Assembly (NCBI GenBank): GCA_001898625.1
Contig: MKUP01000022.1
Coordinates: 186,001-250,000 of the forward strand
Length of the DNA: 64,000 bases
Direction of reading: 5' to 3'
Source: Burkholderiales bacterium 67-32
GTDB lineage: Bacteria; Pseudomonadota; Gammaproteobacteria; Burkholderiales; Burkholderiaceae_B
In this document: positions 25,956 to 42,107 of the stretch, in pieces
Layout: every line of letters starts with the position of its first letter
Position numbering within the stretch: the first letter of the stretch is position 1
Position numbers and translations under genes: made by a program
The notes under the pieces: model-generated
What the model was told of the DNA's origin: nothing
Seen by the model: only the letters and a program-made list of their open reading frames with translations
Database searches by the model: none

Positions 25956-28660
25956 TGCGGCAGGGCCAGGCTCTTGAGCCGGTAGAGTTCGTCCAGCGCC
26001 TCGCGCGGGCTGAGGCGGTCCGGGTCGATGCCGTCCAGCGCGTCCCGCACGGCTTCCATGGCATGCTCTCGCGCCTGATCCATCTCCTGCGCTTCGGCGG
26101 CTTCGTCCTGCGGCGGTGCGAACAGCGCCATCTGCGGGACCTGGGCGCCTTGCGTCTCCAGTTTTTCCAGTTCGCGCCGCGCCATGCGCACGACCGCGGC
26201 GGGGATGCCCGCGCGCTGCGCGACCTGGATCCCGTAGCTGCGGCTCGCGGGGCCTTCGCGCACCTCGTGCAGGAAGACGATGCCCTTGTGTGATTCCGCC
26301 GCGGCCAGGTGCACGTTGGCGACCTCGGGGCGCACCGAGGGCAGGCGCGTCAGTTCGAAATAATGCGTGGCGAACAGGGTCAGCGCGCGGTTCTGCGACA
26401 CAAGCTGGAAAGCGATCGCCCAGGCCAGGGCCAGGCCGTCGTAGGTCGAGGTGCCGCGGCCGATCTCGTCCATCAAGACCAGGCTGTCGGAAGTGCTGGA
26501 CGACAGGATGGCGGCTGCCTCGATCATCTCCATCATGAAGGTGGAGCGTCCGCCCGCCAGGTCGTCGGCGGCGCCGATGCGGGTGAATACGCGGTCGATG
26601 CGGCCGATGCGCGCTGCCCGCGCCGGCACGAAGCTGCCGATGCGCGCCAGCAGCACGATCAGCGCGGTCTGCCGCATGTAGGTCGATTTACCGCCCATGT
26701 TGGGGCCGGTGATCAGCAGCATGCGGCGGGTCTGCGCCAGCCGGCAGTCATTCGGCGTGAAGCGTTCGATGACCCGTTCCACCACTGGATGGCGGCCCTG
26801 CTCGATCTGGATCTCGGCGGTGTCCAGCAGCTCGGGCGCGACCCAGTCGTTGGTGCGGGCATGGAAGGCGAGGGCGGCCAGCACGTCGATCTCGGCCAGC
26901 GCCGCGGCCGTCCGCGTCAGCGCGCGCACGTGCGGCGCCAGGGTGTCCAGCAACTGCTCGTACAGCCATTTCTCGCGCGCCAGTGCGCGGTCCTGGGCGG
27001 ACAGGATCTTGTCCTCCCAGGTCTTGAGCTCGGGCGTGATGTAGCGTTCGGCGTTCTTGAGCGTCTGCCGGCGGCGGTAGTCGTCGGGGACCTTGTCGGT
27101 CTGGCCGCGCGTGACCTCGATGAAGAAGCCGTGCACCCGGTTGAACTCCACGCGCAGATTGGCGATGCCCGTGCGTTCGCGCTCGCGCTTTTCCAACTGC
27201 ACCAGGAAGTCGCCGCTGTGCGATTCCAGTGCGCGCAGCTCGTCCAGTTCGGCATCGAAGCCGGCGGCCAGCACGCCGCCGTCGCGTACGTTGACGCCGG
27301 GCTCGGCGGCGACGGCGCGCGCCAGCAGCTCGCCAATGGCCGGATCGGGCGCGAGCTGGGCCGCCAGTTCGGGCAACCGCGCCTGCGTGTCGGCCGACAG
27401 CATCGAGCCTTCGCCGGCCAGGCGCAGCACCATGGCGTGCAATCCGGGCAACAGCTCCAGCGCGTCGCGCAGGCTGGCCAGTTCCCGCGGCCGCACCGAG
27501 CGCAGGGCCACGCGCGCGGAGATGCGCTCCACGTCCGGCAGCGGCGACAGCGCGTCCTGCAGCAGGCGCGGATCGCCGCCATCGAGCAGGGTTTCGATGG
27601 CGCGCAGGCGGGCGGCGGCGGGATCGTTGTCGCGCAGGGGGTGGTGCAGCCAGCGTCGCAGCAGCCGGCTGCCCATGGGCGTCTGGCAGTGGTCCAGCAC
27701 CGAGAACAGCGTGGGGGACTCTTCGCCGCGCAGGGTTTCGGTCAACTCCAGGTTGCGCCGCGTGACGGGGTCGAGCAGCACGTACTGGCTGGCGCGGTCC
27801 GCGGTCAACTGCTGCACGTGCGCCAACGCCTGGGACTGTGTGTTCGAGACGTAGCGTAGCAGCGCGCCCGCGGCGCAGATGGCCTCGGGCATGTCCTCGA
27901 CGTCGAAGCCGGCCAGCGAGTCGGTGCCGAAGTGGTTCAGCAATTGCTGGCGGGCGCCGCTGGTCTCGAAATGCCAGACCGGCACCGGGCTGATGGGGGC
28001 GCTGAAATCGACCGGCAGCGGCTGGCCCTCGGCCAGTATCACTTCCGCCGGCGAGATGCGATGCAGCTCGCTCGCCAGCAGGGCGGGCGCACACTCGGTC
28101 AAGCGGAACTCACCGCTGGCCAGGTTCAGCCACGCGATGCCCAGGCGGCCCGTCTTGCCGTTGCCCGGCTGGACCGCGGCAACGGCGCGATCGGCCTTGG
28201 CCGGAAGCAGGGCTTCGTCGGTCAGCGTGCCGGGCGTCACGATGCGGACGATGCGGCGTTCCACCGGTCCCTTCGAGGCGGCGGGGTCGCCGATCTGTTC
28301 GCAGATCGCGACCGACTCGCCCAGCTTGACCAGCCTGCCCAGGTATTGCTCGACGGCATGGAAAGGCACGCCCGCCATCCGTATGGGCACGCCATTGGAG
28401 GCGCCGCGGGTGGTCAACGTCAGGTTCAGGAGACGCGAGGCTTTTTCCGCATCGTCGTAGAACAGCTCGTAGAAATCGCCCATGCGGTAGAACAGCAGCA
28501 GAGGGCCGGCTTCGGCCTTCAGGCGGAGATACTGCTGCATCATCGGCGTGTGACCCGCGGAGTCGGTGCCTGGTTTCGCTAGGGAATTTCTTGGGGAGGC
28601 GCGTCTTGCCTCGCTTTCCTGATGATCGTTCGTCGTTTCTTGCGGCACGTTTGGACCCAA
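25952..28660 (-). CDS. mutS: DNA mismatch repair protein MutS; ORF extends upstream to TTG 28660, first ATG 28544, true start uncertain
   Basis: [28 protein letters not shown], Walker [39 protein letters not shown]. Confidence 0.95.
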
Positions 28661-28780
28661 TTACACCTATCTAAATCCATCAACACTTACGCCGTTGGCG
28701 TAGGTTTTTGTCCTTGTTCTGGACAAGCTACGCTGTCAGTAATAGCATGCCGGCACAAAGTTACGCCGACTTGGATCGAC

Positions 28781-30061
28781 ATGCAATTTGACGCGCGCGC
28801 AGCGAAGCTTTTGCAGCCAGGGCAACACATTACCATCGACGCTCACCCTGGGCTGCGACTGAAGGCAACTGCTACAAAGCGGACCTGGATCTATCGGTAC
28901 AAAAGTCCGGTCGACGAGCGCATGCGCCAGATCAAGCTGGGGCAGTGGCCAGCGATGTCGTGGCATGCTGCAGTAGCGCAGTGGGAAGTGCAGCGCGCGA
29001 GGCGCGACGCCGGTGGCGATCCGGCGCTGGAGAAGAGACAGGCGCGCCAGGCTGTCAAGCTGGCCGTGGTCGACAAAGTCGGCGCGCTGACGGTGCGGCG
29101 AGTCTGTGACCTCTACCTCGAGGGGCATATAAGCCGTCGGGCGGAGAAGGGGCGGGGCGAGGTGGCCAGGTTGTTCAATACCATGCTCGATGGCATTGAG
29201 AACATGCTGGCCGTCGACGTCACTCGTACGGTGGCGTTTGCCCACATCAAGAAATACGACGAGTCACCGGTGATTGCGAGCAACCTGCGGCGCGAGCTCG
29301 GGGCGGCCTGGGACTATTGTTTGGACTCGGGAGATCTGCTCGAAGACACGCCCAACTGGTGGCGCTTGATTCTGCGAGGGAAGCTCAAATCCAAGGGTAG
29401 AGCCAAGCTGGGAGTCAAGGCGGGGAAAAAGAAACGCGTGCTCAGCCCGGAGGAGGCGGGCCAGGTTATCCGATGGCTCCCGAATTTCTCCAACAATGTC
29501 GACGATATGTTGACGCTATACCTGTGGACTGCTGTGCGGGGCGCCGAGATCGAGAAGATCGAGGGGAGGGAGGTTCAGGAGGAGGCGGACGGCCTCTGGT
29601 GGACAATCCCCAAACACAAAACCAAGAACGTCAATCGAGAAGAAGCCGATGATCACCGCGTTCCTTTGGTGGGGCGGGCGGCCATCGTAGTGCGCCGGCG
29701 GAAGGAGGCCTACGGCGATGGTTATCTATTCCCCTCGGACAGCAAATTCGGCTATTTCCCGCAGAAATCGGCCTCGGGATCGGTCTACTACCACATGCCG
29801 TACTGTCGGACCATGCCCGAGAGGGAGCGGGCGCGTTTGCCGGTGGAGAACTGGGCGCCGCACGACCTGCGGCGAACGTCCAGGACATTCCTGGCGGCGC
29901 TCGGCTGCCCGCGCGACGTGGGGGAGGTCATCCTCGGGCACATGCTCGAGGGCGACGAAGGCACGTACAACCGCTATACGTTCGATAAGGAACGTCTTCA
30001 TTGGCTCACGCACCTGTCTGACTATCTGGAACAACTGGCGGTTCATCGACCTTCCGCTTAG
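28781..30061 (+). CDS. int: tyrosine-type phage integrase
   Basis: MQFDARAAKLLQPGQHITIDAHPGLRLKAT arm-binding region; catalytic TAVRGAEIEKI, HDLRRTSRTFLAALG, ILGHMLEGDEGTYNRY. Confidence 0.93.
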   Translation: MQFDARAAKLLQPGQHITIDAHPGLRLKATATKRTWIYRYKSPVDERMRQIKLGQWPAMSWHAAVAQWEVQRARRDAGGDPALEKRQARQAVKLAVVDKVGALTVRRVCDLYLEGHISRRAEKGRGEVARLFNTMLDGIENMLAVDVTRTVAFAHIKKYDESPVIASNLRRELGAAWDYCLDSGDLLEDTPNWWRLILRGKLKSKGRAKLGVKAGKKKRVLSPEEAGQVIRWLPNFSNNVDDMLTLYLWTAVRGAEIEKIEGREVQEEADGLWWTIPKHKTKNVNREEADDHRVPLVGRAAIVVRRRKEAYGDGYLFPSDSKFGYFPQKSASGSVYYHMPYCRTMPERERARLPVENWAPHDLRRTSRTFLAALGCPRDVGEVILGHMLEGDEGTYNRYTFDKERLHWLTHLSDYLEQLAVHRPSA

Positions 30062-32287: not shown

Positions 32288-33288
32288 TCGGCACCCCCTT
32301 GCGGCGATCCCGCTCGGCGATGGTTGTCCAGGCCCTTGCTGGCGCGCCACGCGTCAACCGAGTTGTCGCCGTCGACGGCAACGCGCGCGGCCATAACGGC
32401 GGTCTGAACCGCCTCTTTCCAGACGTTCTTTCCTGGCTCGTCCAGCAATGCCTTAATCAGCTCGCCGAACTCTTCCGCCAGGGCTAGACCCATGATGCGG
32501 TCACCAGGGAAAAGGCGGCGTGCACGCGATAGCTCCTGCTCGACGTCCGCGATAAACCGCGCGGTGTCACGCTGTGCATCCTCCGGCACCGCATCTACCA
32601 CGGGAGGCGCTGGCCGAAGCGCTTCATCACGCCCGCTGATCCGCTCACCGCGCTGGTGCAGCATCATGCAGAAATTCGCCACATCCACGGGATCTCCCTT
32701 GGTGATGTGGCTACGCAGCAGGAGGGACAAATGATCCTGGCTGCACTGCGCCTTGTCATACCACCCTCCGCGTCCCTCGGCGCGCTTCTTGGCGAGCTTG
32801 GCCTTCATGGCGGCCGCGAAGCGGTCTACCGCCTCGTCGTCTCGGCGGCCGGCCTGCTCGGATACGAATTGGCCGGTCAAGGATGCTACCTCGGCAGGGG
32901 CAGTCTTGATGGGCGGTTGTGCTTTACCCGCCAGCCAGAACACCGCGCACAGGGCGCTATCGGCCTTCCCCCAGACGTCATGCTCTCGCGCCATCTGCTC
33001 GAATGCTGGGTCGTCGTAGGGATCGCCAACACGGATGTTTTCGGGCTGCAGAGTGACCGTGCTCGAATCGGACGTTTCGGGGGCCGAGAGCGACACTCGG
33101 GCCGCATTCCAGGCTGCAGGACGACGTTCGCTGTAGTGCCGCGAAAGTTCGTCGTATGCGGCGACGTCCTCGGGGCGTTCCAGGTAGTCGGGTTGCGCCG
33201 CGAGGCGGGCCATCCCACGCTTGATGTCCTCAAGCGCCACGAGCTCGGCCAGTGCACCACGAATCGGGTTAGTGCTCTCGGTTGACAT
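32284..33288 (-). CDS. phage protein with C-terminal MazG-like/NTP pyrophosphohydrolase-like region
   Basis: KGDPVDVANFCMMLHQRGERI; LALAEEFGELIKALLDEPGKNVWKEAVQTAVMAARVAVDGD. Confidence 0.7.
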   Translation of the reverse strand: MSTESTNPIRGALAELVALEDIKRGMARLAAQPDYLERPEDVAAYDELSRHYSERRPAAWNAARVSLSAPETSDSSTVTLQPENIRVGDPYDDPAFEQMAREHDVWGKADSALCAVFWLAGKAQPPIKTAPAEVASLTGQFVSEQAGRRDDEAVDRFAAAMKAKLAKKRAEGRGGWYDKAQCSQDHLSLLLRSHITKGDPVDVANFCMMLHQRGERISGRDEALRPAPPVVDAVPEDAQRDTARFIADVEQELSRARRLFPGDRIMGLALAEEFGELIKALLDEPGKNVWKEAVQTAVMAARVAVDGDNSVDAWRASKGLDNHRRAGSPQGGAE

Positions 33289-34315
33289 GATCATGTCCTT
33301 CCTTCGGGGATCGGGGGAATTCGTTGTGGGTGCAGCCGTCCAGCCGCCGGCCTGCGGCTTTCTTCCCGACGCGATACAGGTCTGGTTCGTCGTCGATATG
33401 TCCGTCGTCAGCGGCGAGGCTCTCCATACCGACGCTCCATTCGCTGTTGAGCCACATGGCCGTCTTAACGATGCCCGCATGACGCTCGACATTCACCCCT
33501 GGTGTCCATTCGCCCCATTGCTTGAACAGAAACGGCACGCCGGCGGCGGCACACTGATCGCGCAGGCTCCGGGCCCAATCGGGATGCATCGGGCGTGCGC
33601 CTGGGCCGCTCTCGCCGCCGACGATGATCCAGTCGAGGGCTGGGATGTCAGGCATCGGATTGCCATCGTCATCCGTGCATTCCGTTGTGCCGGTCAGGGG
33701 GTAGATCTCAGCCCAGCCATTGATGTCAATGCGGGTCAGGTCTACCGGCCCCAGCAGCGGCTCCATGCTCAGGAACCGCACGCGCGCCGGCACGGCCATC
33801 AACTTCGGGATGTCGCGGTCGGCCTCAATCTGGTTGGCGATGGTGGCGCCAATCCAGACGTTCGGCCACGGATAATCCGCCCATCGCGTCAGGCCGTGCG
33901 ACATGACGTCGAGCGCGGCATCCAGCATTTGGTGGGCATTGCCGATGCGTTTGGTCAGCAGCAGCCAGTCAAGGTTCGGCGTGTCCGCGATCAGCTGCAG
34001 CAGGTCAATGCGCCACTGCGGATCCACGGCATTGTCGAATACGTCGGCCAGGCTGGCGCAGAACACGCGCCGGCGGCGGCCATGCTCGGCGACGAACGCA
34101 TCGTGCTCGGCGTTCCACTTGATCGGCTGCCGCCAGTTCTCGGCACTGGTGCGCCGGCGTGGTGCGCCCGGGCCCCAGTTCGGCGCCACACCGCCGCCGA
34201 AGCGCGCGTTGCGCGTCTCGGCGTAGCAGTGGTCGCAGCCCAGGCCCATTTTCTGGCAGCCTTCCCAGGGGTTGAACGTGGCGTCCGTCCATTCGATGTT
34301 GCTGCGTTCGGTCAT
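33269..34315 (-). CDS. DUF5131 (phage Gp37/Gp68, three-Cys-motif) protein
   Basis: SNIEWTDATFNPWEGCQKMGLGCDHCYAET...VFCASLADVFDN...LLTKRIGN...IIVGGESGPGARP. Confidence 0.92.
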   Translation of the reverse strand: MTERSNIEWTDATFNPWEGCQKMGLGCDHCYAETRNARFGGGVAPNWGPGAPRRRTSAENWRQPIKWNAEHDAFVAEHGRRRRVFCASLADVFDNAVDPQWRIDLLQLIADTPNLDWLLLTKRIGNAHQMLDAALDVMSHGLTRWADYPWPNVWIGATIANQIEADRDIPKLMAVPARVRFLSMEPLLGPVDLTRIDINGWAEIYPLTGTTECTDDDGNPMPDIPALDWIIVGGESGPGARPMHPDWARSLRDQCAAAGVPFLFKQWGEWTPGVNVERHAGIVKTAMWLNSEWSVGMESLAADDGHIDDEPDLYRVGKKAAGRRLDGCTHNEFPRSPKEGHDHVNREH

Positions 34316-39372: not shown

Positions 39373-39660
39373 TCAGCCTCCTAGACGTTTGAGAATGGAG
39401 CCGCGCAGGTAGGGGCCGTAGAGAAACATGAGCTCGTTCGTCGCCCCGCGTTTGGCAAGGAGGACATCGTCGAGGGCGCCCGATCTCCGGGGTAGGGTGT
39501 TGCACGCAATGCGCTCAATGGCACTAAGAGCGCCAAGGCGTCGGTCGATGTCCGTGGCGGCGGAGCCGTTCAGGCGAGCCGAATTCGAGGATTCGCGGTA
39601 GAGCAACTGCTGGAGACGGATTTCATTGAGCAGGTGCGCAGCGATGTCGGCTGGGGTCAT
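39373..39660 (-). CDS. small phage protein
   Basis: ORF in operon with 4-bp overlap upstream. Confidence 0.65.
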   Translation of the reverse strand: MTPADIAAHLLNEIRLQQLLYRESSNSARLNGSAATDIDRRLGALSAIERIACNTLPRRSGALDDVLLAKRGATNELMFLYGPYLRGSILKRLGG

Positions 39661-39980
39661 TGCTGGCCCCCGGTGGACTGGCCCTGCAGGTCGGCGATGC
39701 GCGCGTGCAAACGCGCCTGGATTTCCACCGCGGCGAGGTTCAGCGGGTGGAGGTGGGGGTCGAGATCCCAGTCAATGCGGAGCGCGCCGGCCAGGAAGCG
39801 AGCGACGGCGTCGACCTGGACGGCGGCGCGATCGAGGAGCGCGGCGCGTTCGGCCTTGGTGCCCTGGACAAGCGGGGCGTTGACGGCGGCTCTCTCGCAG
39901 TAGCGGAGGTAGAGGAGCCCCAGGTCCGTCCAGTGATCGACGGCGCTGGCTGGCGACAGGGGCAATTCGGTGGTGGACAT
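39657..39980 (-). CDS. first gene of leftward early operon, unknown function
   Basis: MSTTELPLSPASAVDHWTDLGLLYLRYCERAAV; preceded by AGGAG RBS and a TTGACA promoter. Confidence 0.75.
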   Translation of the reverse strand: MSTTELPLSPASAVDHWTDLGLLYLRYCERAAVNAPLVQGTKAERAALLDRAAVQVDAVARFLAGALRIDWDLDPHLHPLNLAAVEIQARLHARIADLQGQSTGGQQ

Positions 39981-40006: not shown

Positions 40007-40020
40007 ATGTTAGGTATTGC
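40007..40020 (-). promoter_or_regulatory. operator O1
   Basis: GCAATACCTAACAT on minus strand, exact match to O5. Confidence 0.75.
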
Positions 40021-40036
40021 CGTACTTTGTTGTCAA
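40007..40036 (-). promoter_or_regulatory. leftward early promoter (PL-like)
   Basis: Minus strand TTGACA (40036-40031), 18-nt spacer, TAACAT (40012-40007). Confidence 0.75.
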
Positions 40037-40050
40037 GCAATACACAACTT
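40037..40050 (+). promoter_or_regulatory. operator O2
   Basis: GCAATACACAACTT. Confidence 0.65.
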
Positions 40051-40087
40051 TTTTCTGTTATCTGTATCGAAACGTCAAGGAGCGGGA

Positions 40088-40375
40088 ATGGGCGGGATTC
40101 GGGGAGCTTTGGGGACGGTCGCCTTGCTGGCGACGTTATACGGATGTGCTGGAACGCCGTTCAACTGGAACGATGCGCGCAGAATCCAGCCAGGTATGAC
40201 CGAACAGGAGGTGACGGATATTCTGGGCGCGCCTATGGTGGTTCGCAGCTCGGGCGCGGGGACCACATGGATTTGGAGTCAGGGAGATGCGCTCGGGAGG
40301 TCGAGGAGCTTCTCCGTCGTCCTCAATGAGGGGAAAGTCGTCCAGACGCCTCCGATTCCCGCGAGCTTCCAGTAG
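40088..40375 (+). CDS. BamE/SmpA-OmlA-like lipoprotein encoded in the immunity region
   Basis: LLATLYGC lipobox; IQPGMTEQEVTDILGAPMVVRSSGAGTTWIWSQG...VVLNEGKVVQ; RBS AAGGAG. Confidence 0.8.
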   Translation: MGGIRGALGTVALLATLYGCAGTPFNWNDARRIQPGMTEQEVTDILGAPMVVRSSGAGTTWIWSQGDALGRSRSFSVVLNEGKVVQTPPIPASFQ

Positions 40376-40456
40376 AAGTTAGTAACGTAATAATTGTTTT
40401 GTTACTTTCTGGGTAAATTTTTTTCGCCGAAATCGACGAAGACAACATTGCCCACT

Positions 40457-40828
40457 TTACGCCGCATCGGTTTCTCGTCCGCCCGGATGTCCTTCAGAAG
40501 GGCTTTTAGTGTCTGTTGCCCCTTCGATGAAGCTAGACACCCTGTCGTCCAATTGTTCGCGCTTTGCGCTGGATAGCTCCAGGTAGTCTTCAAACCTAGC
40601 GGAGAACGGCCACCATCCCGTAGCTCCCGAGGTGCTGCCTGTAAGCAGGTGGTCGGTGCTTGTGCGCAGCATCCGGGCTAGCTTTACGAGCCGATCAATG
40701 TCCGGCCGCGTCTCGTCGCGCTCCCAGTCGGAAACCGAAGATTTACTGATTCCGAACGCAGTGGCGACATCCTGCAACGTCAGTTGCAGGTCCTTCCGTC
40801 GTTCCTTAATTCTCTTGCCCAGCGTCAT
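40457..40828 (-). CDS. XRE-family phage repressor (possibly frameshifted; alternate 3' end 40402)
   Basis: MTLGKRIKERRKDLQLTLQDVATAFGISKSSVSDWERDETRPDIDRLVKLARMLRTSTDHLLTG. Confidence 0.88.
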   Translation of the reverse strand: MTLGKRIKERRKDLQLTLQDVATAFGISKSSVSDWERDETRPDIDRLVKLARMLRTSTDHLLTGSTSGATGWWPFSARFEDYLELSSAKREQLDDRVSSFIEGATDTKSPSEGHPGGRETDAA

Positions 40829-40831
40829 AAG

Positions 40832-40845
40832 GCAAAGCCTAACAT
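40832..40845 (+). promoter_or_regulatory. operator O3
   Basis: GCAAAGCCTAACAT directly upstream of repressor start. Confidence 0.65.
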
Positions 40846-40849
40846 TTGC

Positions 40850-40863
40850 AAGTTGTGGATTGC
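40850..40863 (-). promoter_or_regulatory. operator O4
   Basis: GCAATCCACAACTT on minus strand; 13/14 to O2. Confidence 0.65.
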
Positions 40864-40880
40864 CTGACTTAGAATGTTGT

Positions 40881-40894
40881 GCAATACCTAACAT
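40881..40894 (+). promoter_or_regulatory. operator O5 overlapping the rightward promoter -10 (TAACAT)
   Basis: GCAATACCTAACAT, exact 14-nt match to O1. Confidence 0.75.
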
Positions 40895-40904
40895 TGAGGC
40901 ACCT

Positions 40905-41171
40905 ATGGCGATCGTTACGGAAGCCGAGCGCAACTCGGTGAGGGGCGCAATTGAAGCGTTTGGCGGGGTTGCGAAAACCGCTCGTCATTTCGAGGTGAAC
41001 CGTGTCTCGGTCTACGAGTGGATCGACAGGGGCGCAGTGCCGACGGCTCGTGCGGTCGCTATTGAGCGAGACTCTGGTGGGAAGGTGTCGCGCAAGGAAA
41101 TGCGACCGAGGGATTGGGCGGAGCAATGGCCCGATCTCGCTGCGAACTCTCCTTGCTACGAACATCAATGA
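40905..41171 (+). CDS. Cro/YdaS-like phage regulator
   Basis: GAIEAFGGVAKTARHFEVNRVSVYEWIDRGAVPTARAVAIE HTH. Confidence 0.82.
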   Translation: MAIVTEAERNSVRGAIEAFGGVAKTARHFEVNRVSVYEWIDRGAVPTARAVAIERDSGGKVSRKEMRPRDWAEQWPDLAANSPCYEHQ

Positions 41172-41430: not shown

Positions 41431-41652
41431 ATGACAACCGCAGAATGCAAGGCGCCGGCGGTGCTGCTACCTGGGGACAGCGTTCGTTTGCCCTCTGGGG
41501 TACGCGGCCGCTTCGTGCGGTGGTCGGTGCCGTTGGCTCGTGCAATGCAAAGCGGCCGGGAGCGCGTCGCGCTGGTTCAGCTCGAGGGCGACGTTAGCGA
41601 GACGAGTTTTAGCGCGGCTTACGCCGCCAGGTTCGAAAAGGTGACCTCATGA
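41431..41652 (+). CDS. small phage protein
   Basis: RBS GGAGGAAAG; MTTAECKAPAVLLPGDSVRLPSGVRGRFVRW. Confidence 0.7.
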   Translation: MTTAECKAPAVLLPGDSVRLPSGVRGRFVRWSVPLARAMQSGRERVALVQLEGDVSETSFSAAYAARFEKVTS

Positions 41653-42107
41653 GCGCGTTCGAGAATGCTGCCTTCAATACTGTCCACGACTATTCCCGAG
41701 GTGCGAAGGCGCTGGCTGAGATTGTGGACATTCCGTACCACGTGCTGCTGCACAAGGTGAATCCGAACAATGAGACGCACCAGCTCAGCGTGCGTCAGGC
41801 GGTCAAGATCATGCAGGCGACGGGCGATGACCGCATGCTGCACGCCATTGCCGCCGAGCTCGGCATGGTGCTTGTCATCACGCAAATGGCTGAGATCGAC
41901 GACCGCCAGATGCACCAGGCGATGACGCAGGCGTTGGGGCGGTTCGGTGAGTACCTGGATACCGTCAGCGAATCGCTAGAGGATGGTCGGATCACGGCCA
42001 CCGAGCTACGGAAGATCGACGGCACGCTCGGCAAGATGATCGAGAAAGTGACGGTCATTCGGGCGATCGCGGCACAGATGGCAGAGAGCCGGAGGGCCGG
42101 GCGATGA
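41649..42107 (+). CDS. CII-like phage regulatory protein (Phage_CP76-type)
   Basis: AFNTVHDYSRGAKALAEIVDIPYHVLLHKVNPNNETHQLSVRQAVKIMQATGDDRML. Confidence 0.88.
   Translation: MSAFENAAFNTVHDYSRGAKALAEIVDIPYHVLLHKVNPNNETHQLSVRQAVKIMQATGDDRMLHAIAAELGMVLVITQMAEIDDRQMHQAMTQALGRFGEYLDTVSESLEDGRITATELRKIDGTLGKMIEKVTVIRAIAAQMAESRRAGR

Follow-up and report, generated by a model that had tools for sequence, protein, structure and literature searches.

A predicted lambda-like OL/OR switch of the short-repressor (DicA/PaaR2) type in an uncharacterised Burkholderiales prophage

In prophage CP-933P of E. coli O157:H7, the footprints of PaaR2 and YdaS overlap on 18-bp palindromes, PL933P carries OL1-3, and the paaR2 mRNA was found to be leaderless by 5′ RACE, as is also stated for lambda cI (PMC8630535). 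DicA binds TTGTTAGTCATAACTAACAA, and in vivo Oc was reported to be bound while Om and Oa were not (PMC3441716). The Gifsy and DicA repressors are of the ∼100-140 aa type; the Gifsy and Qin repressors, comparable in size to the one described here, are inactivated by antirepressors, and the Gifsy antirepressor is under LexA control (PMC3121763, PMC10448788). Here, a locus of Burkholderiales bacterium 67-32 was compared with these systems within a window, the whole stretch of 64,000 nucleotides that was analysed. The locus (Table 1) is probably a lambdoid immunity region, in which dimers of a 123-aa repressor would act on five 17-bp dyads; we assign this reading, made from sequence, a probability of roughly 0.88.

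Table 1. Coordinates of the features of the predicted immunity region and its surroundings (window positions).
Feature	Position	Strand	Details
Integrase gene	28622-30058		beside mutS
DUF5131 protein gene	33269-34315	-	phrog_2045; in leftward gene set
107-aa protein gene, first in PL operon	39657-39980	-	no family match
PL	40007-40036	-	-35 TTGACA 40036-40031, 18 bp, -10 TAACAT 40012-40007
O1 (OL)	40009-40025		GTTAGGTATTGCCGTAC; dyad over PL -10
O2 (OL)	40032-40048		reverse complement GTTGTGTATTGCTTGAC; dyad, edge shared with PL -35 TTGACA
BamE-domain lipoprotein gene	40088-40375	+	PF04355 1.1e-6; phrog_3135
Stem-loops	40370-40460		z = -2.9
CI-type repressor, 123 aa	40460-40828	-	stop codon 40457-40459; HTH_3, no S24
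O3 (OR)	40827-40843		reverse complement GTTAGGCTTTGCCTTAT; overlaps repressor start codon and PRM -10
PRM extended -10	40836-40844	-	TGTTAGGCT; 7 nt before repressor ATG, within O3
PR	40846-40875	+	-35 TTGCAA 40846-40851, 18 bp, -10 TAGAAT 40870-40875
O4 (OR)	40852-40868		GTTGTGGATTGCCTGAC; fills PR spacer
O5 (OR)	40876-40892		reverse complement GTTAGGTATTGCACAAC; over PR start point
Cro-type protein, YdaS/P22_Cro family	40905-41171	+	PF15943 6.5e-15, PF14549 1.4e-8
CII-type regulator, Phage_CP76	41649-42107	+	PF06892 2.4e-33; phrog_101 CII-like

The repressor showed a Pfam HTH_3 domain (3e-15), and no Peptidase_S24 was found by Pfam scan in its 123 aa, in line with the short XRE repressor lacking S24 that the initial annotation had described. 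Its length and domain content are those of the DicA/Gifsy-type short repressors (∼100-140 aa without S24), and the C-terminal Peptidase_S24 of self-cleaving lambda CI and full-length P22 c2 is absent. Among PDB sequences, P22 c2 was nearest for the DNA-binding domain (5e-10). In the AlphaFold model of the monomer, residues 1-60 had a mean pLDDT >90, and Foldseek matched it to 3jxb (TMt 0.90, rmsd 1.1), P22 c2 being nearest in predicted structure as well. The tail consists of two short helices only (75-83, 87-105).

The repressor gene is divergent from the gene for the Cro-type protein, whose PDB matches carry the name Cro, and the CII-type gene lies downstream of cro. With operator dyads at PR/PRM and again at PL beyond the repressor, this is the arrangement of a lambdoid immunity region. 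To the left of OL, the 107-aa gene is followed by further genes, including those for ParB-like and SSB proteins; a DUF5131 protein is also encoded in the leftward gene set. Since an integrase gene stands beside mutS and a holin gene lies past the right window edge, the region is a prophage cut by the window on its right. No convincing attL/attR repeat common to the two flanks examined was found, and no match was obtained when phages were searched by nucleotide and plasmids by protein sequence. An AAA_21 ATPase gene, possibly for anti-phage defence, stands at the prophage's right end, to the right of the window (L094, 4183-5973, minus strand). The BamE-domain lipoprotein gene sits between OL and the repressor gene, convergent with the latter and reading away from OL, and is likely accessory. 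O2 lies near its likely promoter, and the gene may be under repressor control or serve in lysogenic conversion; in L029, a different gene, for a secreted protein, takes this place in the same orientation. Strong stem-loops between the stop codons of the convergent lipoprotein and repressor genes are a candidate bidirectional terminator.

The initial annotation had listed five related 14-mers around the repressor gene. All five were found in the letters of the window at the positions and on the strands given, and the identity of the O1 and O5 14-mers was confirmed. The natural unit is a 17-bp imperfect dyad that occurs five times, with half-sites GTTAGGYA / GTYAGGCA, and the 14-mers are fragments of it. 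Three dyads lie on the right (OR) and two clear ones on the left (OL), spaced centre to centre by 23 bp at OL and by 25 and 24 bp at OR; lambda has 17-bp operators at a comparable spacing of 23-25 bp. The strands of O3, O4 and O5 do alternate as described, but in sites with dyad symmetry this carries little weight. Two positions, 39977 and 40057, were examined for a third OL site, and both were at background (≤3.7 bits with the other-phage matrix described below).

When GCAATACCTAACAT was searched with up to 3 mismatches, 6 matches were obtained in the window versus 1.2 expected, and no shuffle reached 6. In leave-one-out scoring over 63,984 positions, each left-out site and the four sites used for training took the first five ranks. 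A matrix made from 17 operators of four other phages (L029, L030, L036 and L038), with none from the window, ranked O5, O2, O1, O3 and O4 as the best five of 63,984 positions, at 23.8 to 16.9 bits against 14.2 bits for the next best and a maximum of 14.8 bits in 10 shuffles; as its training sites had first been picked with help of the window sites, the matrix is independent in letters and not wholly so in the choice of motif. It is true that the sites overlap with promoters and that the operator regions look richer in AT than the window, with its 65.5% GC. That the five repeats have arisen by chance, or as AT-rich promoter sequence that serves no regulator, is nevertheless extremely improbable, given the shuffles, the leave-one-out ranks, the other-phage matrix and the retention of the dyads in distant relatives.

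Relatives of the repressor are likewise flanked by three right and two to three left sites. Class 1 (GTTAGG) consists of the window, L029, L030, L036 and L038. One contig (L001/L035) encodes a repressor identical to that of the window, and L029 and L037 agree in repressor length, sequence start and operators. The repressors of L029/L037, L030, L036 and L038 are 42-46% identical to that of the window and have OR and OL dyads on either side. Counted from the ATG, the window, L029 and L038 have OR sites beginning at -64/-40/-15 (the -40 site of L038 being weak); OR begins at -63 in L030 and L036, and in class 1 OL lies 0.6-1.35 kb downstream of the repressor start. In class 2, with half-site GTMAAGCA (L047-L052, L054, L055, L057, L058 and L064; L002/L048, L003/L049, L004/L050, L005/L052 and L006/L064 are the same or near-identical contigs), the OR sites start at -73/-50/-26, and 0.3-0.6 kb downstream of the repressor start lie OL pairs, for the most part with a spacing of 23 bp. 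A de novo search for triple sites failed or was shifted in register in some loci (L030, L036, L042-L046) and gave noise for the majority of distant homologues (L065-L092, L020-L027); therefore, only classes 1 and 2 are claimed.

The promoter elements of PL, PR and PRM were found at fixed positions across the relatives. For PL, the proposed leftward promoter with a TTGACA -35 and O1 over its -10 held, both hexamers lying under O1/O2. It has the same offset in most relatives: in 18 aligned loci, the best -35 (TTGACA, TTGACT or TTTACA) mostly begins 12 bp inside the first OL operator, with L030, L036, L042 and L058 as exceptions to this register, and an O2 that shares its edge with the -35 is also seen in most of them. 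For PR, TAACAT under O5 had been taken as the -10. This candidate was dropped in favour of TAGAAT, because the class 1 relatives carry -10 hexamers (TATATT, TATAAT, TAAAAT or TAGAAT) in the same place as the latter. O3 had been described as abutting the repressor start; it overlaps the start codon instead. The PRM extended -10 reads TGTTAGGCT, TGCTAGCCT or TGGTAGCCT in class 1, and the TGnTAGSCT form is kept in L029, L030, L036 and L038; class 2 relatives carry TATAAT-like hexamers 6 nt ahead of the repressor ATG. The conserved extended -10 at 7 nt from the ATG indicates that the repressor mRNA is probably leaderless and starts at the ATG. In class 1, including the window, the middle operator (O4) covers the PRM -35 and has its centre ∼32 bp before the point where PRM is predicted to start, rather than at -42, the position of the activating middle operator in lambda; the middle operator of class 2 has its centre 42 bp ahead of the ATG, at the lambda position. 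Because of its place over the -35, it is doubtful that the middle operator activates PRM in the manner of lambda in class 1, the window included.

The recognition helices of the repressor and of the Cro-type protein were compared among the loci (no Cro was included from L048 and L054). Class 1 combines CI helices of the form [SNH][KR]xSVSxW with Cro helices of the form [NAS]Rx S[VI]YxW, and class 2 combines [TS]x[QK]AVSxW with [TS][AM]QA[VI]SQW, from which the CI of L058 departs (KQAVYDW). Thus, the helices of CI and Cro covary with operator class, both being of the xSV[SY]xW type for GTTAGG and of the [QK]A[VI]SxW type for AAGC. This is indirect evidence that the repressor and Cro may read the same five sites. 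The likeness of the two helices within each class also means that both proteins may bind, and DicA was reported to occupy Oc, but neither Om nor Oa, in vivo (PMC3441716), so the dyads might mainly be sites of the YdaS-type Cro, with the repressor at a subset only and its symmetric control of OL and OR overstated. We consider this unlikely: the nearest experimentally supported half-site, GTTAGT of DicA Oc, is a repressor site, and PaaR2 and YdaS of CP-933P have overlapping footprints (PMC8630535).

Control of the five dyads by the repressor, with Cro as antagonist, remains the preferred reading, and by analogy with lambda and CP-933P the switch would work as follows. In the scheme of binding and occupancy order that we infer, repressor at O4 and O5 would shut off PR and silence the cro-cII and replication genes, and repressor at O1 and O2, over the -10 and -35 of PL, would stop expression of the leftward operon (with ssb, parB-like and other genes). 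Filling of O3, over the repressor -10 and start codon, would limit synthesis of the repressor from its predicted leaderless mRNA, transcribed from the extended -10 promoter. Cro would bind these sites too and, should it prefer O3, would flip the switch to lytic growth. The repressor might bind its sites cooperatively, as the initial annotation predicted. Repressor oligomers might in addition bridge OL and OR, so that a DNA loop of ∼0.83 kb stabilises repression. The dual clusters that flank the repressor gene are kept across relatives, but we regard this addition as rather doubtful, as the tail offers two short helices, the S24 domain that carries oligomerisation in lambda is absent, the OL-OR distance ranges from ∼0.4 to 1.4 kb among relatives, and repression of PL alone accounts for OL.

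Because the repressor has no S24 domain, induction should proceed through an antirepressor or another signal and not through RecA-driven self-cleavage. No LexA-like box above chance was found in the window and the region to its right, and no antirepressor family was recognised among the proteins scanned, such proteins being small and diverse. S24-bearing repressors, confirmed by Pfam in L042, L044, L069 and L074, have recognition-helix type and operator layout in common with the short ones. The operator system thus occurs with both kinds of C-terminus, suggesting exchange of the C-terminal domain on a constant operator system. The related operators would imply that such a swap changed the inducing input and kept the DNA code, and we tentatively propose a short-repressor class in which lambda-type PRM activation was lost. 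In this class, PRM would run as an extended -10 promoter for a leaderless mRNA with no activation from the middle operator, repression by itself would maintain lysogeny, and induction would occur by an antirepressor.

Taken together, the analysis gives good support to the view that this is a genuine OL/OR switch, lambda-like and conserved, with a short repressor as in DicA/PaaR2. The control of OL and OR by a short XRE repressor put forward in the initial annotation is upheld in its conservation in relatives, its Pfam assignment and PL, and amended in the detail of PR, the placing of O3 and the possible binding of Cro to the same sites, which had been left out. The kind of switch is already known from lambda/P22, DicA and PaaR2-YdaS, and the prophage example is new. 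A prediction of immunity specificity follows from it for a prophage that is uncharacterised. The relatives make up a natural set of switches whose repressor, Cro and operators vary in concert; this set could help decode CI/Cro specificity and could show how cleavable and non-cleavable repressors are exchanged on a constant operator layout.

Among the known systems, PaaR2-YdaS-YdaT of CP-933P shares with the window a divergent repressor and YdaS-family Cro followed by a CII-type gene, dyads at PRM/PR and at the far-side PL, and a leaderless repressor mRNA (predicted in the window). It differs in its 18-bp palindromes with half-site GTTTAGTAA, in its four OR repeats, in a repressor gene that heads a toxin-antitoxin operon, and in its CII, which is YdaT and not Phage_CP76. 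DicA-DicC of Qin and GfoR/GtgR of Gifsy have a short non-S24 repressor in common with the window, and DicA also the half-site GTTAG and operators on both sides of dicA. However, Oc of DicA is an even dyad without the central base of the window dyads, and the antirepressors Rem and GfoA are known for these systems, whereas none was found among the proteins scanned here. A search for DicA-type 18-mers found one in Rac (L097) and none in mEp460_ev081 (L095), the repressor of which is less closely related. P22 c2 and lambda CI-Cro resemble the window in the HTH fold (P22 c2 being nearest), the three-site OR and the opposite OL, but the window lacks the S24 cleavage/oligomerisation domain, its middle OR site is ∼10 bp nearer the PRM start than in lambda, and it has two clear OL sites versus three in lambda, CP-933P and some relatives. 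BcepC6B gp44 and the IMG/VR loci L039-L046 share with the window the type of recognition helix and of Cro, and L039-L046 also have related GTTAGG/GTACGG dyads at OR and OL; unlike the window, their repressors are 227-244 aa long, with S24 established through Pfam for L042 and L044 and deduced from sequence for BcepC6B gp44.
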